Below are positions 37,997 through 64,000 of a stretch of DNA of 64,000 bases, in pieces. Every line of letters begins with the position of its first letter. Position 1 is the first letter of the stretch. The position numbers were made by a program, and so were the translations under genes. The stretch lies in assembly GCF_001267885.1 (NCBI RefSeq), contig NZ_CP012382.1, positions 5,443,001-5,507,000 of the forward strand, read 5' to 3'. The notes under the pieces are model-generated. The model did no database searches and was not told the origin of the DNA. It worked only from the letters and a program-made list of their open reading frames with translations. This DNA comes from Streptomyces ambofaciens ATCC 23877. Lineage in GTDB: Bacteria > Actinomycetota > Actinomycetes > Streptomycetales > Streptomycetaceae.

Positions 37997-39369
37997 TTGC
38001 GGACCACCTGGTTGTCGGTGGCCTCCTTGAGCGCCTCGTCGTAGCCGCGGGCCGCCTCCTCGACCGACAGGTCCCCCGTCGTCACGCCCTCCATCGCCTC
38101 CTGGATGGCGACGGAGACCTTCGGGTACGCCGGGTAGGCGGGCCGGTAGTGGGTGCTCTCGACGAGGTCGGTGAAGAACTCGATGCCGGGCTGGGCGTCG
38201 ACGTAGGCCGGGTCCTGCGCCACGTCCTCGCGGACCGCGATGCCGGAGTTGGCGACGTACCACTTCTGGGCGTTGGCCTTGGTCTGCATCGTCTTGATGA
38301 ACTCGAAGGCCAGGTCGGGGTTGCCCGCCTTGGCCGGGATCGACCAGGTCCAGCCGCCCGACATGCTCACCCGGCCGGGCGCCTGGCCGTTCTGGGTCGG
38401 CATCGCGGCCAGCCCCAGCTCCTTCGACCACTCGGGCCACTCGTGCCCGCTGCCCTCCAGCCAGTCCTGCGGCAGCCACGAACCGTCCAGGGCGATGCCG
38501 AGCTTGCCCTGCGGAAGCAGTTCACCGCGGACCTTGGTGCCGAAGTTGGGGTCGAGCGCGTCGGAGACCTCCGGGCCGAGCTTCTCCTCGTAGACCGTCT
38601 CGACGAAGGCGAGGGAGTCCTCGAAGCCCTGTCCCGCCGCGATCCACTTCTTGCTGCTCCTGTCGTACAGCGGGTCCGTGGAGCCGTCGTTCGTGCCGTA
38701 CAGCAGCATCTGGAAGCCCTGCATGGTGGCGGCCTCGCCGGCCGGCTTGCCCGTGTACACGTTGAGCGGTGTGACGCCGGGGACCTTCTCCTTGATGGTG
38801 CGGGCCGCCGCCAGCACGTCGTCCCAGGTCTTCGGCTGCCAGTCGGCGGGCAGCCCGGCCTCGGCGAAGACGTCCTTGCTGAACCACAGGCCGCGCGTGT
38901 CGGTGCCGTCCGGGACGCCGTACGTCCTGCCGTCCTCGCCCTTGGCCGCCGCCTTCGCCGTGTCGATGAACCGGTCCCAGTCCTTCCACTCGGCCAGGTA
39001 GGGGTCGAGGGGCTTCAAGTACCCGCTGGTGATGTCGGAGTTGATGAGGAAGGTGTCCTCGTAGACCAGGTCCGGCGCGGTCTTGGGGGAGCGGAGCATC
39101 TGCTGGAGCTTGGTGTAGTACTCCGAGTCCGGGGCCTTGATGGGGACGAGTTCGACCTTCTTGCCCGGGTGGGCCTTCTCGAACTGCTTCTTGATGTCGC
39201 CGAGGTACGTGTCCATCACCTTGATGGAGTTGTCCGTGGACTGCTTGAAGGAGACCTTCACCGTGTCCGGATCGTCGCCGGATCCGCTGCCGCAGGCGGC
39301 GAGGGAGGTGGAGGCGAGGGCGGTGAGGGTGAAGAGGGCGGTGAACCGGACGGTGGGACGCACGGGCAT
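37993..39369 (-). CDS. Sugar-binding lipoprotein of ABC importer
   Basis: The 458-residue protein has a lipoprotein signal with lipobox LAAC (Cys at about residue 26), then a family-1 solute-binding fold (GRTYGVPDGTDTRGLWFSKDVF split around residue 143-165; YKLQQ-like and SGGWTWSIPAKA segments). It captures an oligosaccharide or sugar outside the membrane. ATG 39369 follows AGGAGG. The promoter region carries TTGACC-17-TTACGT with a TGGTCTAG operator half in the spacer, suggesting GntR/LacI-type control. Confidence 0.94.
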   Translation of the reverse strand: MPVRPTVRFTALFTLTALASTSLAACGSGSGDDPDTVKVSFKQSTDNSIKVMDTYLGDIKKQFEKAHPGKKVELVPIKAPDSEYYTKLQQMLRSPKTAPDLVYEDTFLINSDITSGYLKPLDPYLAEWKDWDRFIDTAKAAAKGEDGRTYGVPDGTDTRGLWFSKDVFAEAGLPADWQPKTWDDVLAAARTIKEKVPGVTPLNVYTGKPAGEAATMQGFQMLLYGTNDGSTDPLYDRSSKKWIAAGQGFEDSLAFVETVYEEKLGPEVSDALDPNFGTKVRGELLPQGKLGIALDGSWLPQDWLEGSGHEWPEWSKELGLAAMPTQNGQAPGRVSMSGGWTWSIPAKAGNPDLAFEFIKTMQTKANAQKWYVANSGIAVREDVAQDPAYVDAQPGIEFFTDLVESTHYRPAYPAYPKVSVAIQEAMEGVTTGDLSVEEAARGYDEALKEATDNQVVRK

Positions 39370-55676: not shown

Positions 55677-58301
55677 GTGGGGGTGAAGGCGATCCGTCGA
55701 CTGACCGTCCGTCCCGTTCTCCCCGACCCCCTCCGGCCGCTCAGTGATCTGGCCCGCAATCTGCGCTGGTCCTGGCACCCGGAGACCCGCGACCTCTTCC
55801 AGTCCGTCGACCGCGAGTGCTGGGCCGCCTCAGGCTGCGACCCGGTGCGGCTGCTCGGCACCGTTCCGCCCGCGCGCCTGGCGGAGCTGGCCGAGGACCG
55901 GCGCTTCCTGCGCCGGCTGACCGCGGTGGCCGACGACCTCGATCACTACATGACCGGCGACCGCTGGTACCAGGCCCAGTCGGGCCGACTCCCCGCCGCC
56001 GTCGCCTACTTCTCGCCCGAGTTCGGCATCACCGCCGCCCTGCCCCAGTACTCGGGCGGCCTCGGCATCCTGGCCGGCGACCACCTGAAGGCCGCCAGCG
56101 ACCTGGGCGTGCCGCTCATCGGCGTCGGCCTGCTCTACCGCCACGGCTACTTCCGCCAGTCCCTGTCCCGGGACGGCTGGCAGCAGGAGCACTACCCCGT
56201 CCTCGACCCCCACGAGCTGCCGCTCGCCCTCCTCAGGGAGGCCGACGGCACCGCCGCGCACGTCGCCCTCGCCCTGCCCGGTGGCCGGGAGCTGCGCGCC
56301 CGGATCTGGCTGGCCCAGGTCGGCCGGGTCCCCCTGCTGCTGCTGGACTCGGACGTCGAGGAGAACGACCTCGGCGAACGCGGTGTCACCGACCGGCTCT
56401 ACGGCGGCGGCAGCGAACACCGGCTCCTCCAGGAGATGCTCCTCGGCATAGGAGGTGTCCGGGCGGTGCGGACGTACTGCCGCCTCACCGGGCACGCCGC
56501 ACCCGAGGTGTTCCACACCAACGAGGGCCACGCCGGCTTCCTCGGTCTGGAGCGCATCAGCGAACTCTGCGACGAGGGCCTGGAGTTCGGCTCGGCGCTG
56601 GAGGCGGTGCGGGCCGGCACCGTCTTCACCACCCACACCCCCGTCCCGGCCGGCATCGACCGCTTCGACCGCGAGCTGGTCGCCCGCCACTTCGGCCCCG
56701 ACGCGGAACTCCCGCGCATCGACGTCGAACGCGTCCTGCGGCTCGGCATGGAGACCTATCCCGGCGGTGAGCCGAACCTCTTCAACATGGCGGTGATGGG
56801 CCTGCGGCTGGCCCAGCGCGCCAACGGCGTCTCCCTGCTGCACGGCGGGGTGAGCCGGGAGATGTTCGCCGGACTGTGGCCCGGCTTCGACGCCGACGAG
56901 GTGCCGATCACCTCCGTCACCAACGGGGTGCACGCCCCGACCTGGGTCGCGCCGGAGGTGTTCCGGCTCGGCGCCCGGCAGATCGGTGTCCAGCGGGCCG
57001 AGGACGCGCTGACCCTCGGCGGCTCGGACCGCTGGGACTCGGTCGCCGACCTCCCCGACCAGGACGTCTGGGAGCTGCGCCGCACCCTGCGCGAGCAGCT
57101 CGTCGAGGAGGTCCGGGACCGGCTGCGCGCCTCCTGGCGGCAGCGCGGCGCGGGGACCGCCGAGCTGGGCTGGATCGACGACGTCCTCGACCCGGACGTG
57201 CTCACCATCGGGTTCGCGCGGCGCGTCCCGTCGTACAAGCGCCTGACGCTGATGCTGCGCGACCGGGACCGGCTGATGGACCTGCTGCTGCACCCCGAGC
57301 GGCCGATCCAGATCGTCGTCGCCGGCAAGGCGCACCCGGCGGACGACGGCGGCAAGCGGCTGGTGCAGGAGCTGGTGCGGTTCGCGGACGACCCGCGGGT
57401 GCGGCACCGGATCGTCTTCCTGCCGGACTACGGCATGGCGATGGCGCAGAAGCTCTATCCGGGCTGCGACATCTGGCTGAACAACCCGCTGCGGCCCCTG
57501 GAGGCGTGCGGCACGTCGGGCATGAAGGCGGCGCTCAACGGCTGTCTCAACCTCTCGGTGCTCGACGGCTGGTGGGACGAGTGGTTCCAGCCGGACTTCG
57601 GCTGGGCGATCCCCACCGCCGACGGCGCGGGCACCGACCCGGACCGGCGCGACGCCATAGAGGCCTCCGCCCTCTACGACCTGCTGGAGCAGCGGATCAC
57701 CCCCCGCTTCTACGAGCGGGGCGCGAGCGGGCTGCCCGACCGGTGGATCGAGATGGTCCGCCGGACCCTGAGCCTGCTCGGGCCGAAGGTGCTGGCCGGC
57801 CGCATGGTCCGGGAATACGTCGAGCGGCTCTACGCCCCCGCGGCCGAGGCGCACCGCGCGATGGACCCGGACTCCGCCCGCGCGCTCGCCGAGTGGAAGG
57901 CCCGGGTGCGGGCGGCCTGGCCGGGGGTGAGCGTCGACCATGTGGAGACGTCCGCGGCCGGCGCCACGGCGGAGCTGGGCTCGACGCTCGGGCTGCGGGT
58001 GCGGGTGAACCTCGGCGACCTCGCCCCGGACGACGTCGAGGTGCAGGCGGTCTCCGGCCGGGTGGACTCCGAGGACCGGATCACGGACGCGGCGACCGTG
58101 CCGCTGAAGCCGGTGGGCGGCCCCGACCTGGACGGCCGCTGGGCGTACGAGGGCCCGCTCGCCCTGGACCGCACCGGTCCCTTCGGCTACACGGTCCGCA
58201 TCCTGCCCGCGCACCGGCTGCTGGCCTCCGGGGCGGAGGCGGGGCTGGTCGCGGTGCCGTCGGACGACGTGCTCCAGGCGGCCGGGCTGCTGATGCGGTG
58301 A
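55677..58301 (+). CDS. glgP: Alpha-glucan (maltodextrin/glycogen) phosphorylase
   Basis: The ~874-residue protein is of the actinobacterial GlgP type: an N-terminal DUF3417 domain (RPLSDLARNLRWSWHPETRDL), AYFSPEFGI, HTNEGHAGF, and the pyridoxal-phosphate lysine in EACGTSGMKAALNGC (about residue 617). It releases glucose 1-phosphate from alpha-1,4-glucan. Starts are GTG 55677 and GTG 55683; there is no Shine-Dalgarno, and the spacing from TAACGT favours a leaderless start at 55683. It is divergent from the glgE operon. Confidence 0.95.
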   Translation: MGVKAIRRLTVRPVLPDPLRPLSDLARNLRWSWHPETRDLFQSVDRECWAASGCDPVRLLGTVPPARLAELAEDRRFLRRLTAVADDLDHYMTGDRWYQAQSGRLPAAVAYFSPEFGITAALPQYSGGLGILAGDHLKAASDLGVPLIGVGLLYRHGYFRQSLSRDGWQQEHYPVLDPHELPLALLREADGTAAHVALALPGGRELRARIWLAQVGRVPLLLLDSDVEENDLGERGVTDRLYGGGSEHRLLQEMLLGIGGVRAVRTYCRLTGHAAPEVFHTNEGHAGFLGLERISELCDEGLEFGSALEAVRAGTVFTTHTPVPAGIDRFDRELVARHFGPDAELPRIDVERVLRLGMETYPGGEPNLFNMAVMGLRLAQRANGVSLLHGGVSREMFAGLWPGFDADEVPITSVTNGVHAPTWVAPEVFRLGARQIGVQRAEDALTLGGSDRWDSVADLPDQDVWELRRTLREQLVEEVRDRLRASWRQRGAGTAELGWIDDVLDPDVLTIGFARRVPSYKRLTLMLRDRDRLMDLLLHPERPIQIVVAGKAHPADDGGKRLVQELVRFADDPRVRHRIVFLPDYGMAMAQKLYPGCDIWLNNPLRPLEACGTSGMKAALNGCLNLSVLDGWWDEWFQPDFGWAIPTADGAGTDPDRRDAIEASALYDLLEQRITPRFYERGASGLPDRWIEMVRRTLSLLGPKVLAGRMVREYVERLYAPAAEAHRAMDPDSARALAEWKARVRAAWPGVSVDHVETSAAGATAELGSTLGLRVRVNLGDLAPDDVEVQAVSGRVDSEDRITDAATVPLKPVGGPDLDGRWAYEGPLALDRTGPFGYTVRILPAHRLLASGAEAGLVAVPSDDVLQAAGLLMR

Positions 58302-58331
58302 GCCCCGCGGGCGGCGGCGGCGCGGGGGGCG

Positions 58332-58841
58332 TCAGTCCTCCTCGTCGCCGCCGCTCAGCCGTCGCAGCACCGTGCCGCAGCGCCGGGCGTAGGCGTGCTG
58401 GAAGGCGCGGGCGGCCGGTCCGCCGGCCTTGGCGTACCACTTGGCGGGGCGGCTGAAGGCGGTCACGGTCAGCCAGACCGTGCCGTCGCCGGTGCGGTCG
58501 ACCACGAAGGCCTCCTCGCCGGACTCGGGGTGACCGGGCAGCGTGCCGTAGGCCCATCCGGCCCGGCGGTGCTCCTCCAGGGTCCACACCACCCGGCAGG
58601 GCGCCTTGATCATGCCGGCGAGGGTGACGGTGACGTCGACGCCGGGCGCGGCGCGCTCCGCGCTCGCGTCGATGCCGACGCCCATCTCCCGGTGCATCTC
58701 CCAGGTGAGCACGGCCTCGGCCGCCCGCCGGAACACCGGTTCGCCCTCCCCGAGGCGCGTGCGTACGTGCATGGAGCGGAAGCCGGGCGGGCAGTGGCCC
58801 TGCTCGCGGGTGGCGCCGACGTCGTCGTACGTGAAGGACAT
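58332..58841 (-). CDS. DUF1990 family protein
   Basis: The ~169-residue protein shows the DUF1990 pattern: FTYDDVGATREQGHCPPGF, then a central hydrophobic stretch around RVVWTLEEHRRAGWAYGTLPG and a C-terminal PAKWYAKAGGPAARAFQHAYA. No enzyme activity is established for the family. It converges on glgP. ATG 58841 is the most likely start; TAGTCT just upstream on the minus strand would give a leaderless mRNA. GTG 58847 is an alternative. Confidence 0.85.
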   Translation of the reverse strand: MSFTYDDVGATREQGHCPPGFRSMHVRTRLGEGEPVFRRAAEAVLTWEMHREMGVGIDASAERAAPGVDVTVTLAGMIKAPCRVVWTLEEHRRAGWAYGTLPGHPESGEEAFVVDRTGDGTVWLTVTAFSRPAKWYAKAGGPAARAFQHAYARRCGTVLRRLSGGDEED

Positions 58842-58855
58842 GGGCACCAAGACTA

Positions 58856-58893
58856 GGGCGGCACCCGGGAACCGCTGGTTCCGGGTGCCGCCC
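58856..58893 (-). terminator. Terminator of the first metalloprotease gene
   Basis: GGGCGGCACCCGGGAACC (58856-58873) and GGTTCCGGGTGCCGCCC (58877-58893) pair over 17 bases with a single bulged G and a three-base loop. It follows the protease stop on the minus strand and precedes the DUF1990 gene. Confidence 0.75.
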
Positions 58894-58913
58894 GCCGTGT
58901 TGCGCCGTGCCGG

Positions 58914-60563
58914 TCAGCTCACGTTGACGGCGGTCCAGGCCGCGGCCACCGTCTTGTACTCGGTGCTGGTGGCGCCGTACAGGTCGGACGCCGCGCTCAG
59001 GGTCGCGGTGCGGGCGCCCTTGTAGTTCGTCGTGGACGTCATGTACGTGGTCAGCGCCTTGTACCAGATCTGCAGCGCCTTGGCGCGGCCGATGCCGGTG
59101 ACGGTGGAGCCGTCGGCGGTGGGGGAGTCGTAGCTCACCCCGTTGACGGTCCGCGCCCCGCTGCCCTCGGCCAGCAGGAAGAAGAAGTGGTTGGCCGGGC
59201 CCGACGAGTAGTGGACGTCCACGCCGCCGAGACCCGAGGACCAGTAGTCCTTGGACGCGCCGTCCTTGCTGGGCTTGTCCATGTGGCGCAGCGGGCTGCC
59301 GTCGCCGTTGATGTCGATCTCCTCGCCGACGAGGTAGTCGCCCTTGTCGGCGGAGTTGTTCGCGTAGAACTCCACGCCGGTGCCGAAGATGTCGCTGGTC
59401 GCCTCGTTGAGGCCGCCGGACTCGCCGCTGTAGACGAGGCCCGCGGTGTGGGAGGTGACGCCGTGGCTCATCTCGTGCCCGGCCACGTCGAGCGAGGTCA
59501 GCGGGTGCGTGTTGCCCGAGCCGTCGCCGTACGTCATGCAGAAGCACGCGTCGGACCAGAAGGCGTTGACGTAGTTGCTGCCGTAGTGGACGCGGGAGTA
59601 GGCCGCCTTGCCGTCGTTCCTGATGCCGCTGCGGCCGAAGGCGCTCTTGTAGAAGTCCCAGGTGGTCTGGGCACCGTAGGCGGCGTCGACGGCGGCGGTC
59701 TGGTCGGTGGAGGAGCCGGAGGCTGCGCCGGTGCCCCAGACGTCGTCCGCGTCGGTGAACAGGGTGCCGGTGCCGGAGGTCTTGCGGGCCAGGTTGTACG
59801 TCTTGTGGCCGCCCCGGGCGGTGTCGTACAGCTGGTACGTGGAGCCGGACTTCGTGGTGCCGAGGGGGACCGTGCCCGAGTAGAGGCTCTTGCCGGAGCC
59901 GGTCTCGATGCCCTGGTACGCGTGCAGCTCGGCGCCGGTGGCCGCGTCGGTGATGACGTGCAGCTCGTTCGGGGTGCCGTCCTCCTGGAGGCCGCCGACG
60001 ACGGTCTCGTAGGCCAGCACGGGCTTGCCGTCGGCCGCCCAGATCACCTTGCGGGGCGCGGAGTCGGCGGCGGTCCTCGACGAACCGGCCTCCTTCGCGG
60101 CGCTCAGCGCCTGCCGCTCGGCCCGGGCGGCGCCGACCTTCGGCGTCACGCTCGCGACCTCGACGGCGGCCTTCGTGGCTCTGGTCACGCCCTCGGTCGC
60201 GCCGGACGGCGCCCGGTGCACCACGAGGTCGCCACCGAGGACGGGCAGGCCCTGGTACGTGCGCTCGTAGCGGGTGTGCACGCTGCCGTCGCGGTCCTTG
60301 ACGACGTCCTTGACGACCAGTTCCTCCTGGGCACCGAGGCCTATCTCCTCGGCCGTGCCGGCCGCGGTCCGCTGCTGCTCCCGGACGAGCGCGGTGCGGG
60401 CGGTGTCCGACAGCAGGACGGGGGCGCCCGGGAGGGGCGGCTCGGCGGTGGCGTCGGCGGTCGCGTTGCCGGCGGTCAGGCCGGTGGTGAGCAGCGCTCC
60501 GGCCGCGACCGCGGTGGCGAGGGCCAGGGTGCTGCGCTTGTGGCGCGCGAAGAGGGGGGACAC
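58914..60563 (-). CDS. npr: Secreted neutral metalloprotease (M4, thermolysin-like)
   Basis: The 549-residue preproenzyme has a Sec signal (STLALATAVAAGALLTTGL), FTP and PepSY propeptide domains (about 45-215), and an M4 catalytic domain with HEMSH zinc ligands, GGLNEATSD glutamate and the active-site HYSSGPANHFF histidine. It is exported, folded with its propeptide and then activated. GTG 60563 has GAAGGAG before it. It is a close paralogue of the next gene but lacks the C-terminal P domain. Its promoter shares a 60-base module with that gene. Confidence 0.95.
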   Translation of the reverse strand: MSPLFARHKRSTLALATAVAAGALLTTGLTAGNATADATAEPPLPGAPVLLSDTARTALVREQQRTAAGTAEEIGLGAQEELVVKDVVKDRDGSVHTRYERTYQGLPVLGGDLVVHRAPSGATEGVTRATKAAVEVASVTPKVGAARAERQALSAAKEAGSSRTAADSAPRKVIWAADGKPVLAYETVVGGLQEDGTPNELHVITDAATGAELHAYQGIETGSGKSLYSGTVPLGTTKSGSTYQLYDTARGGHKTYNLARKTSGTGTLFTDADDVWGTGAASGSSTDQTAAVDAAYGAQTTWDFYKSAFGRSGIRNDGKAAYSRVHYGSNYVNAFWSDACFCMTYGDGSGNTHPLTSLDVAGHEMSHGVTSHTAGLVYSGESGGLNEATSDIFGTGVEFYANNSADKGDYLVGEEIDINGDGSPLRHMDKPSKDGASKDYWSSGLGGVDVHYSSGPANHFFFLLAEGSGARTVNGVSYDSPTADGSTVTGIGRAKALQIWYKALTTYMTSTTNYKGARTATLSAASDLYGATSTEYKTVAAAWTAVNVS

Positions 60564-60642
60564 ACAAGCTCCTTCGGTGGGGGGACTCCGGTCGGCGTGG
60601 GTGTCCGGCCGGAGGTGACTGCGAAGTTGTGCGGCGGGTGAC

Positions 60643-60702
60643 GGAAGACTGGCACCGAAGGCGCGTACATGTCAGGAGGGTCGGATGATGTTGGCCGAAA
60701 GT
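60643..60702 (-). promoter_or_regulatory. Conserved metalloprotease promoter module, copy 1
   Basis: In the direction of transcription: ACTTTCGGCCAAC, 12 bases, TCCTGACA, 15 bases, TGCCAGTCTTCC. CTGACA and CAGTCT are 18 bases apart and fit -35 and -10. The ACTTYCGGCCAAC block lies upstream, where an activator would bind. The same module is at 63079-63138 with identical spacing. Confidence 0.65.
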
Positions 60703-60784
60703 CGATGTCCGGTCGCCTGTTGCGGGCGTGTGAACGCGTGTGACCTCGGCAAAGCGGCAACCCTGGGTGCGTATGGGCTCGGCA

Positions 60785-60844
60785 AAAAAGGGCGGGCATG
60801 CGGAGGGCGCCGCCCCGGGGATGTGAACCACCGGGACGGCGCCC
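60785..60844 (-). terminator. Terminator of the second metalloprotease gene
   Basis: GGGCGCCGYCCCGG-type arms at 60805-60818 and 60831-60844 pair over about 14 bases. On the minus strand they are followed by CCCGCCCTTTTTTGCC, giving a clear T-run (60790-60785). It is the most canonical terminator in the window. Confidence 0.8.
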
Positions 60845-60868
60845 TGACCGTGAGGCCCTGCCCGCGAC

Positions 60869-62914
60869 CTACGGGAAGGTCAGCTTGAAGGAGTTGATGT
60901 AGCCGGTGTCCTGGGCGGCCACGTCCTGGACCCGCAGCTTCCAGGTGCCGTTGGCGGTCTCCGAGGAGGCGTTCACCGTGTACGTCTGGTTCACGTTGTC
61001 CGCCGAGTCCGACGAGCTGCTGTTCTTCAGGCGGTACGCGGTCCCGTCCGGGGCCAGCAGGTCGACCACCAGGTCACCGCGCCAGGTGTGCACGATGTCC
61101 ACCGCGGCCTGGAGGTTCGCGGGCGCGTTGCCGGCCCGCCCCGTCACGGTGACCGACGAGGTGACCGCCGCTCCGTTGTCCGGGATCGCCACGTCGGCGG
61201 CGTTCTCGAAGGAGGTGCCGCCGCCTCCGCCGCCGCCGGAGCGGGCGCCGACGTTGATGCCCGCCCACGCGTCCTGCACCCGCTTGTACTCGGTGCTGTC
61301 GGTGCCGTACAGCTCACCGGCCGCCGCGAGGGTGCCGGTGCGGGCCGCCGCGTAGTTGGTGGTCGAGGTGAACTTCGTGGTGAGCGCGCGGAACCAGATC
61401 TTCGCCGCCTTGTCGCGGCCGATGCCGGCGACCGGGAGCCCGTCCGAGGTGGGCGAGTCGTAGGTGACACCGTTGATCGTCTTGGTGCCGCTGCCCTCGC
61501 TCAGCAGGTAGAAGAAGTGGTTGGCCGGGCCCGACGAGTAGTGGACGTCGATCCCGCCGATGCCCGAGTACCAGGCGTCCTTGGAGGCGCCGTCCTTGCT
61601 GGGCTTGTCCATGTAGCGCAGCGGGGTGCCGTCGCCGTTGATGTCGATCTCCTCGCCGATGAGGTAGTCACCGACGTCGGAGGAGTTGGCGGCGTGGAAC
61701 TCGACGGCCGCGCCGAAGATGTCGGAGGTGGCCTCGTTGAGCCCGCCGGACTCACCGCTGTAGACGAGGCCCGCGGTGTTGGAGGTGACGCCGTGGGTCA
61801 TCTCGTGGGCGGCCACGTCGATCGAGGTCAGCGGGTTGGCGTTGCCCGAGCCGTCGCCGTACGTCATGCAGAAGCAGCCGTCCGACCAGAAGGCGTTGAC
61901 GTAGTTGTTGCCGTAGTGGACGCGGGAGTACGCGCCCACCCCGTCGCCGCGGATGCCGGAGCGGCCCTGGACGTTCTTGTAGTAGTCCCAGGTCAGCGCG
62001 GCCCCGTAGTGGGCGTCGGCCCCCGCGGTCTCGGCGTTGGAGGCCTGGCCGTTGCCCCACACGTCGTCGGGTCCGGAGAAGAGCGTGCCGGTGCCGGAGG
62101 TGCCCCGGTTGAGGTTGTACGTCTTGTGGTTGCCGCGCGTCGTGTCGGTCAGCGTGTACGACGACCCGGACTGCGCGGTGCCCAGCGTCACCGTGCCGCT
62201 GTACATGGTGTTGCCGGTGCCGTTGTGGATCGCCTGGTACTCGAAGAGCTTGGCGCCGGTGGCCGCGTCGGTGACGACGTGCAGCTCGTTGGGGGTGCCG
62301 TCCTCCTGGAGGCCGCCCACCACCGTCTCGTACGCGAGGACCGGGGTGCCGTTCGCCGCCCAGACCACCTTGCGCGGGGCGCGGTCGGCCTCCGCCCCCT
62401 CGGTGCCGGCCGCCTTCGCCGCGGACACGGCCTGGGCCTCGGCCTTGCCGGCGGATATCTTCGGCGTCACGGTGGCCGGCCTGATCGCCTTGGACGTGGC
62501 CTTGACGACCCGCTCGGTCCTGCCGCCGTCGGTGGTGACGACCAGGTCGCCGCCGAGGACGGGCAGCCCGTCGTAGGTGCGCTCGTAGCGAGTGTGCACG
62601 GTGCCGTCGCGGTCCTTGAGCACGTCGCGGACGACCAGCTTCTCCTTGGCGCCCAGACCGAGTCCGTCGGCGGTCCGCGCCTTGGCGGCGTCGGCGTCGC
62701 GGATCAGTTCGGCGCGCTGGGCCGGAGTGAGCTCGACGGACTCGGCGCCCGGGGCGGGGGCCTGCCGGGGCGCCGCGGTGGCGGCCCCGGACTGGACCGC
62801 CGTGGCGATCAGCGCGGCGACGCCGGCCAGGGCGACGGCGGCGGCGCGGCGGTGGGTGGTGCGGTGGGACGTGGTGTGGGAGGTGCGTCTGTGGGGAGAA
62901 CTGCTGCTCAACAC
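60869..62914 (-). CDS. Secreted M4 metalloprotease with C-terminal P domain
   Basis: The 681-residue protein has a long signal peptide (residues ~20-47, AAAVALAGVAALIATAV), FTP and PepSY propeptides, an M4 domain with HEMTH, GGLNEATSD and HYSSGPANHFF, a Gly-rich linker (SGGGGGGG), and a C-terminal P/homoB domain (about 570-681) ending INSFKLTFP. P domains stabilise secreted proteases and bind calcium. GTG 62914 follows AAGGAG with five-base spacing; a longer frame to 63103 runs through the promoter. It is a paralogue of 58914-60563. Confidence 0.95.
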   Translation of the reverse strand: MLSSSSPHRRTSHTTSHRTTHRRAAAVALAGVAALIATAVQSGAATAAPRQAPAPGAESVELTPAQRAELIRDADAAKARTADGLGLGAKEKLVVRDVLKDRDGTVHTRYERTYDGLPVLGGDLVVTTDGGRTERVVKATSKAIRPATVTPKISAGKAEAQAVSAAKAAGTEGAEADRAPRKVVWAANGTPVLAYETVVGGLQEDGTPNELHVVTDAATGAKLFEYQAIHNGTGNTMYSGTVTLGTAQSGSSYTLTDTTRGNHKTYNLNRGTSGTGTLFSGPDDVWGNGQASNAETAGADAHYGAALTWDYYKNVQGRSGIRGDGVGAYSRVHYGNNYVNAFWSDGCFCMTYGDGSGNANPLTSIDVAAHEMTHGVTSNTAGLVYSGESGGLNEATSDIFGAAVEFHAANSSDVGDYLIGEEIDINGDGTPLRYMDKPSKDGASKDAWYSGIGGIDVHYSSGPANHFFYLLSEGSGTKTINGVTYDSPTSDGLPVAGIGRDKAAKIWFRALTTKFTSTTNYAAARTGTLAAAGELYGTDSTEYKRVQDAWAGINVGARSGGGGGGGTSFENAADVAIPDNGAAVTSSVTVTGRAGNAPANLQAAVDIVHTWRGDLVVDLLAPDGTAYRLKNSSSSDSADNVNQTYTVNASSETANGTWKLRVQDVAAQDTGYINSFKLTFP

Positions 62915-63205
62915 TGACTCCTTCTGCGTGGCCGCGGGTCGCGCGGCCAGGGGAGACCGGTCGGCGGGTGGGCCGGCCGGGCGGTACTGGGCGGTACGCA
63001 GAAACCACGTGCTAGGAGCTGGCCACGGCACAGCGCGCTGGTGTGAGGAAGCTGTGGGGGCGCTGTGGAGCGGCCGTGGGAAGAGTGGCAGGAGAACGCG
63101 CATTCTGTCAGGAGCGCGTCAGAAAGTTGGCCGGAAGTGGTTCGTTGACCGGGCGTTCATGTTCGATATACGGCGCGGTTGCCCGGGCGGAATCCCGGCG
63201 GTCGC
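62915..63205. promoter_or_regulatory. Promoter region of the P-domain protease, with module copy 2
   Basis: This stretch holds no gene. The conserved module runs from 63138 down to 63079 on the minus strand: ACTTCCGGCCAAC, 12 bases, TCCTGACA, 15 bases, TGCCACTCTTCC. Transcription would start near 63072, giving a leader of about 155 bases. Confidence 0.65.
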
Positions 63206-64000
63206 TCAGCCGGCCTCGGGCCCGCACGGCCGGCCCTCCGCGGGCGCGGGAGGCAGGCTCTCCACGGGCGCGGGAGGCAGGTCCTTCGCGGGCGCGGGAG
63301 GCGGGCCCTTCGCGGGCTCGGGAGGCTGACCCTCCCGGGGGGCAGACGGCTCCCCGTGCCAGGACCCCCACAGCGCCGCGTACGCCCCGCCGGCCGCCAC
63401 CAGTTCGTCGTGCGTGCCCAGTTCGGTCAGCAGACCGTCCTCCATCACGGCCACCCGGTCGGCGTCGTGCGCGGTGTGCAGGCGGTGCGCGACGGCGATG
63501 ACCGTACGGCCCTCCAGCACGGCGGCCAGCGCCCGCTCGGTGTGCCGGGCGGTCGTCGGGTCCAGCAGGGCGGTGGCCTCGTCGAGGATCAGCGTGTGCG
63601 GGTCGGCCAGCACCACGCGGGCCAGCGCGAGCTGCTGGGCCTGCGAGCCGTCCGTCCGCCGGCCGCCCGTACCCATCTCGGTGTCGAGGCCGTCGGGCAG
63701 CTCACGCACCCACTCCTCGGCGCCCACCGTGGCGAGCGCGGCCCACAACCGCTCGTCCGGGGCCGCCGGCTCGGCGATGAGGAGATTGTCGCGGACCGTG
63801 CCGAGGAACACGTGGTGCTCCTGGGTGACCAGCACGACCTGCCGGCGCAACCGCTCCGGCCCGAGGCCCACCACGGGCACCCCGCCCACCGTCACCGAGC
63901 CCTCGGTCGGCGCGTCGACGCCCGCCAGCAGCCGGCTCAGCGTGGTCTTGCCGGCCCCGGACGGGCCGACGACCGCCAGCCGCTCGCCCGGCCGCACGGT
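63206..64000 (-). CDS. ABC exporter, C-terminal ATPase part (partial)
   Basis: The frame enters the window from its far edge; the gene start lies beyond 64000. The visible 265 residues hold a full nucleotide-binding domain: Walker A GPSGAGKTT, Q-loop VTQEHHVF, signature DGSQAQQLALARV (variant DGSQAQ instead of LSGGQ), Walker B TLILDEATALLDP and the H-loop VAHRL. The C-terminus is a run of PAPAK/PPAP repeats. The fused transmembrane domain expected upstream is not visible. It is probably half of a heterodimeric exporter; the variant signature suggests a degenerate site. Confidence 0.88.
   Translation of the reverse strand, partial: TVRPGERLAVVGPSGAGKTTLSRLLAGVDAPTEGSVTVGGVPVVGLGPERLRRQVVLVTQEHHVFLGTVRDNLLIAEPAAPDERLWAALATVGAEEWVRELPDGLDTEMGTGGRRTDGSQAQQLALARVVLADPHTLILDEATALLDPTTARHTERALAAVLEGRTVIAVAHRLHTAHDADRVAVMEDGLLTELGTHDELVAAGGAYAALWGSWHGEPSAPREGQPPEPAKGPPPAPAKDLPPAPVESLPPAPAEGRPCGPEAG

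Follow-up and report, generated by a model that had tools for sequence, protein, structure and literature searches.

Two neighbouring metalloprotease genes of Streptomyces ambofaciens ATCC 23877 are each preceded by the same three short blocks of sequence at the same internal spacing, and the question that this locus raises is what the shared 60-base arrangement does and which regulator it serves. The genes lie in a stretch of 64,000 nucleotides of contig NZ_CP012382.1 (positions 5,443,001 to 5,507,000, forward strand), which was analysed as a whole and is called the window below; all coordinates are those of this window. A preliminary description of the sequence had read blocks 2 and 3 as the -35 and -10 elements of a promoter and block 1 as an activator site, and had proposed a single regulator dedicated to a regulon of secreted proteases. 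We consider it highly likely that each module is one promoter dependent on AdpA, an AraC-family protein that acts as master regulator of development in Streptomyces, in which an activator site stands at a fixed distance from a weak promoter and which was duplicated together with the gene and kept by selection.

Two copies of a spaced module

The modules occupy positions 60643-60702 and 63079-63138 on the minus strand, and both match the pattern ACTTYCGGCCAAC-N12-TCCTGACA-N15-TGCCASTCTTCC with 0 mismatches, so that the three blocks and their spacings of 12 and 15 bases stand as first described. At up to 3 mismatches, the pattern was found nowhere else in the window and in none of 100 shuffles, and the whole genome of 8.39 Mb yielded 2 module matches, both at the promoters of these two paralogous genes. 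With the two copies in register, the blocks agree in 12/13, 8/8 and 11/12 positions (31/33 in all) and the gaps in 4/12 and 1/15. The statement that the intervening bases differ is thus true for this pair, but incomplete, as each of the two paralogue types keeps a gap sequence of its own. Since the pattern had been read off these two copies themselves, it was searched for in other genomes. Plain identity of the 60-mers was discarded as a test of significance: the best value was 36/60, compared to a mean of 31.7 (standard deviation 1.3, maximum 39) in 2,000 simple permutations, which is not extreme, and the proof therefore rests on conservation across genomes.

Both downstream genes are M4 paralogues, in agreement with the preliminary description of two metalloprotease genes. 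The type A gene (58914-60563, minus strand) starts with GTG and encodes a thermolysin-like metalloprotease of 549 amino acids without P-domain, in which Pfam Peptidase_M4, Peptidase_M4_C and FTP all score above their curated cut-offs and which begins, by eye, with a signal-peptide-like stretch. The type B gene (60869-62914, minus strand, start GTG at 62914 or TTG at 62911) encodes a protein with a C-terminal P-domain (60869-62911 analysed), in which Peptidase_M4, M4_C, P_proprotein and FTP likewise exceed the curated cut-offs. Both proteins therefore combine the M4 and M4_C domains with the FTP propeptide motif of thermolysin-like M4 peptidases, and they are 68% identical over 525 positions. 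The letters A and B are best-BLAST labels, which do not by themselves prove orthology. In S. coelicolor, SCO5447 has a P-domain, shares a table row with S. griseus sgmA and adjoins a close paralogue without P-domain (PMC4255298); type B is SCO5447/sgmA-like, and the correspondence of type A to SCO5446 is taken from that description of the adjacent paralogue.

Conservation in Streptomyces

Our sample comprised 101 Streptomyces genomes, including that of S. ambofaciens. The strict pattern at up to 3 mismatches gave 47 matches in 37 of these genomes, and a relaxed pattern, TTYCNGCCAA-N14-CCTGACA-N15-TGNCASTCTTC, gave 111 matches in 82, while a control pattern read backward had 0 matches in both searches. 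From 110 loci, among the M4 matches listed, we took 144 regions upstream of M4 genes, of which 123 contain the module at up to 7 mismatches. The two gaps measure 12 and 15 bases in 100 of these 123 sites, 12/14 in 14, 11/15 in eight and 12/17 in one. Alignments made blind to the module peak at the same blocks, sharply for 69 P-domain orthologues and less so for 41 type A regions. In type B regions, the gap between the -35 and -10 elements holds 0.40 bits per column compared to 1.5-1.9 in the blocks. The earlier proposal of selection on spaced elements is supported by the frequency of the module and its mostly constant gaps.

The genes that follow the module belong almost entirely to one family. 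Among 108 distinct sites from the fetched loci, which were counted separately from the 111 places matched by the relaxed pattern, 107 have the start of an M4 gene less than 500 base pairs (bp) downstream. An exact scan of all genomes gave, among the matches listed, 130 sites in at least 119 loci, and 122 of the listed sites precede an M4 gene at an E-value of 1e-3 (121 at 1e-10); for the remaining eight, 0-275 bp of downstream sequence is available, so that the gene could not be judged. The listed loci are mostly from Streptomyces, with one from Kitasatospora, one from 'Streptosporangium nondiastaticum' and two from 'Actinobacteria bacterium'. The motif search that the preliminary description had suggested returns sites of which nearly all stand before genes of one family.

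The sole exception of the 108 is found in genome G086 (contig C7, L290:501-557), where a module with the sgmA-type gap sequence precedes the gene of a secreted serine protease at L290:617-1777. The product matches serine proteases (PDB 3wy8, E = 2.5e-56) and has, by eye, a signal-peptide-like start; Pfam Trypsin_2 is reached at an E-value of 0.0029 only, below its cut-off. No M4 remnant was found near this gene, and the case suggests a transfer of the promoter between protease families. Two further arrangements were noted. Genome G094 (L084, L097) has a pair of P-domain M4 genes separated by about 0.5 Mb of chromosome, each with the module, and the end of contig C137 of genome G048 (38476-38673) holds two identical copies in opposite orientation, which is probably an assembly artefact.

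Probable core promoter

Blocks 2 and 3 are, judging from the bases that are retained, probably a -35 element and a TGN-extended -10 element, in line with the preliminary reading of CTGACA and CASTCT. At the type A promoter, the -35 hexamer CTGACA, assigned from conservation, would lie at 60670-60675 within block 2 (60670-60677) and the extended -10 element, TGC-CAGTCT, at 60646-60654; the type B counterparts are CTGACA at 63106-63111 within block 2 (63106-63113) and TGC-CACTCT at 63082-63090, all on the minus strand and with the -10 element placed 18 bp after the hexamer. From the -10 positions, transcription is predicted to start at 60639 for type A, giving a leader of 76 nucleotides, and at 63075 for type B, giving a leader of 161 nucleotides (both minus strand).

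Over the 123 module sites, whose choice by similarity to the pattern inflates these figures, the T, G and C of the block 2 core TGAC are present in 123 each and the A in 121. In block 3, T and G of TG occur in 122 each, followed by a free base (C in 46, G in 37, T in 25 and A in 15), and CASTCT has its A2 in 123/123 and its T6 in 122/123. A free N in TGN together with near-invariant A2 and T6 is what is expected of an extended -10 element of the sigma70 family. Promoters of S. coelicolor are described with a -35 element NTGACC and a -10 element TANNNT (PMC4895711); CTGACA agrees with the former in 5/6 positions, and CASTCT has A2 and T6 of the latter, without T1, at a spacing of 18 bp, where a principal-sigma (HrdB-type) promoter would have both elements 15-20 bp apart. 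We infer that weak -10 elements are common where an activator is needed.

The upstream block and its probable regulator

Block 1, the reverse complement of which is GTTGGCCGRAAGT, resembles a binding site of AdpA. It lies at 60690-60702 in the type A promoter, where the plus strand reads GTTGGCCGAAAGT, and at 63126-63138 in the type B promoter, where the plus strand reads GTTGGCCGGAAGT (block itself on the minus strand in both cases). The AdpA motif derived from chromatin immunoprecipitation sequencing (ChIP-seq) in S. venezuelae is TGGCCGRAWH(YSRHC) (PMC12466573), which we scored as TGGCCGRAWHYSRHC over 15 positions. Both promoters agree with it in 13/15 positions and in 9/10 of its core. Over the 123 module sites, the score is 15 in 30, 14 in 58, 13 in 25, 12 in nine and 11 in one, so that 113/123 reach at least 13, compared to a fraction of 3.8e-4 of background positions. 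The strict AdpA consensus TGGCSNGWWY had also been tried: it has 2 exact matches in the window compared to a shuffle mean of 7.2, none of them at these promoters, and the ChIP-seq motif fits better.

The genome encodes an AdpA of its own (L158) with HTH_18 and DJ-1_PfpI domains, as a member of the AraC/XylS family, which over the DNA-binding domain is nearly identical (E = 4.5e-79) to 3W6V, the DNA-binding domain of S. griseus AdpA. Its gene has a TTA codon between the two domains (codon 300 of the open reading frame), and another TTA, codon 73, precedes the likely true start. The TTA codon between the domains is as described for Streptomyces adpA (PMC4255298).

Orthologues of both protease genes are published AdpA targets. 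The S. venezuelae sgmA gene (vnz_25255, the SCO5447 orthologue) is a direct and positively regulated target by ChIP-seq and expression (PMC12466573); the AdpA motif found in that organism fits block 1 plus its flank in the present promoters, while S. venezuelae is said to have a single sgmA copy, in contrast to the adjacent pair in S. ambofaciens. The S. coelicolor pair SCO5446/SCO5447 consists, like the present one, of adjacent M4 genes without and with P-domain; the SCO5446 transcript falls sharply in adpA null mutants and rises on adpA expression, and an AdpA-like motif lies upstream (PMC2936110, PMC4255298). A fixed spacing of three blocks is not mentioned in the passages of both papers considered here. 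S. griseus sgmA (SGR_2095; PMC6784218, PMC4255298), the counterpart of type B, encodes a P-domain M4 protease and depends on AdpA, its transcript being undetected in adpA deletion mutants (PMC6784218, its reference 54). By analogy with these orthologues, AdpA would activate the type B gene and be needed for expression of the type A gene. Block 1 as an activator site is thereby supported, on grounds of motif and orthology. The same gene, sgmA of S. griseus, was reportedly described by Kato et al. in 2002 as an AdpA-activated metalloendopeptidase gene.

In the mechanism that we favour, AdpA would bind block 1, whose centre lies some 57 bp ahead of the predicted start; with starts at 60639 and 63075, as predicted, the block would span -51 to -63. 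The bound protein would then recruit or steady the principal RNA polymerase holoenzyme at a weak promoter made of a good -35 element (CTGACA) and a poor TGN-extended -10 element (TGN-CASTCT), with a spacing of 18 bp in most cases and 17 bp in some. Since the regulatory link between AdpA and sgmA is already in print, the surprise is limited, and what we describe are real, well-conserved promoters with a probable regulator that is already known. Published AdpA sites are of relaxed specificity and number up to five, from -260 to +60 (PMC12466573 and the paper on the S. lividans AdpA regulon), which makes it a question what renders an AdpA site activating. With one geometry kept in most of the sampled Streptomyces genomes, the module offers a clean model promoter for the contact between AdpA and RNA polymerase; the fixed distance between AdpA site and promoter, the direct repeat of type B described below and the serine protease case are worth following.

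Probable origin of the shared promoter

A tree of 137 M4 proteins, from which 7 of the 144 were left out as too short, was rooted at the midpoint and labelled for the module (118 bearing it, 15 without it and 4 with a partial one). Module-bearing genes stand on both sides of the root, and the labels change 6 times compared to a mean of 18 times in shuffles. From this distribution, we read the module as an old promoter that duplicated together with its gene and has since disappeared from some branches. Its presence at both neighbouring M4 genes would accordingly go back to an old duplication that included the promoter; selection would have preserved contact blocks and spacing, and the gaps would have changed in a way particular to each paralogue type. 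The preliminary description had ruled out a recent duplication, which is right, but a duplication it is all the same, given that the genes are adjacent paralogues and that the module stands on both sides of the tree.

Alternative explanations

A different activator, dedicated to a set of secreted-protease genes, might bind block 1. All judged sites do precede a protease gene, 107/108 of the M4 family and one of a secreted serine protease, and block 1 is strongly conserved although the specificity of AdpA is relaxed. We nevertheless regard such an activator as improbable, as block 1 fits the AdpA ChIP-seq motif and the AdpA targets in the literature include orthologues of both genes. The genome also lacks a third module site at up to 3 mismatches, so that the module is not found before several unrelated exported proteases, and blocks 1 and 2 alone, at up to 2 mismatches, give 3 matches in it (two of them these promoters) compared to 2 for the control. 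The dedicated protease regulator of the preliminary description finds no support here, because AdpA is a pleiotropic regulator of hundreds of genes and because the full module hardly occurs outside the M4 family. It is extremely improbable that the module is a functionless leftover of tandem duplication. The adjacency and 68% identity of the paralogues and the presence of the module on either side of the root of the gene tree would suit such a leftover, yet agreement has dropped to 4/12 and 1/15 in the gaps but stands at 31/33 in the blocks, the -35/-10 gap of type B carries far less information than the blocks, and the spacing is retained in 82/101 genomes. Finally, AdpA might act here while block 2, block 3 or both are sites of further regulators and the promoter lies at another place, such as the conserved gap elements, TTGACG in type B and TGTACGCG in type A. 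CASTCT is indeed a poor -10 element. We give this arrangement little credence, since the free N in TGN-CASTCT, the almost constant A2 and T6 of the -10 element, the TGAC core and the spacing of 17-18 bp fit an extended -10 promoter of the sigma70 family and the gap elements are not common to both paralogue types.

Several observations weigh against an AdpA-dependent promoter of the form that we prefer. A scan for E. coli-type promoters found none, and CASTCT shares 2/6 bases with TATAAT, which also speaks for a promoter elsewhere. Compared by eye with TGGCSNGWWY, type B has 9/10 and type A 8/10 positions, neither being exact, and since the specificity of AdpA is relaxed, a motif match alone is weak. 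SCO5447 has 0 occurrences in the passages considered of the paper on the S. lividans AdpA regulon, and SCO5446 has been called probably intracellular (PMC2936110), in contrast to the signal-peptide-like start seen by eye in the type A protein here. No module at up to 7 mismatches was detected in 21 of the 144 M4 upstream regions, nor at up to 3 mismatches at the third M4 match of the S. ambofaciens genome, which means that some M4 genes manage without it. The conservation of the blocks is overstated to the extent that 123 of 144 regions were picked for similarity to the pattern. Moreover, the paralogue-specific gaps and the repeat of type B show that AdpA and RNA polymerase are not the whole story.

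Paralogue-specific sequences

In the P-domain type (type B), TTGACGCG is conserved in the gap before the -35 element, while the element conserved in type A lies in the gap after it. Type B has in addition a direct repeat absent from the preliminary description, CGAAC-N16-CGAAC, with a period of 21 bp, which alignment and pattern search placed at 63140-63168 (minus strand), abutting the AdpA box; its proximal CGAAC unit runs into the end of the 15-base AdpA motif. In the general form CGRAC-N16-CGRAC, the repeat occurs in 63/69 P-domain orthologues, 1/41 type A regions and 11/28 other regions, and in the S. ambofaciens genome it has one match with 0 mismatches, at the type B promoter, and two with 3 mismatches elsewhere. 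The conserved gaps and the repeat point, as far as sequence comparison goes, to extra inputs specific to each paralogue, and a second factor could bind to either of them. A bolder picture, which is possible but doubtful, is that of a phase-locked cassette of AdpA and RNA polymerase, stricter than usual AdpA promoters and transferable to unrelated secreted proteases as in G086, to which the sgmA type would have added the direct repeat of 21-bp period as a second operator and paralogue-specific input.

Neighbourhood of the protease genes

Downstream (3') of the type B gene and ahead of the type A promoter, a strong hairpin of 50 nucleotides was identified by folding energy at 60801-60850 (minus strand); the folding of 60780-60850 gave a free energy of -41.1 kcal/mol and a z-score of -3.8. 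The hairpin was not listed in a terminator scan, and no U-tract directly follows its stem on the 3' side. It probably separates the transcripts of the two protease genes, possibly as a terminator, and such a structure behind the type B gene suggests that transcription of type A requires a separate promoter. An Rfam scan of 58300-63400 gave nothing at gathering scores. Elsewhere in the genome, 8,000 bases of its second contig matched 29 Streptomyces plasmids of PLSDB, of which none covered 80%. Beyond the type A gene, the neighbouring gene at 58332-58850 (minus strand) encodes a DUF1990 protein, and the gene at 55677-58301 (plus strand) encodes a DUF3417/phosphorylase protein that is glycogen-phosphorylase-like.

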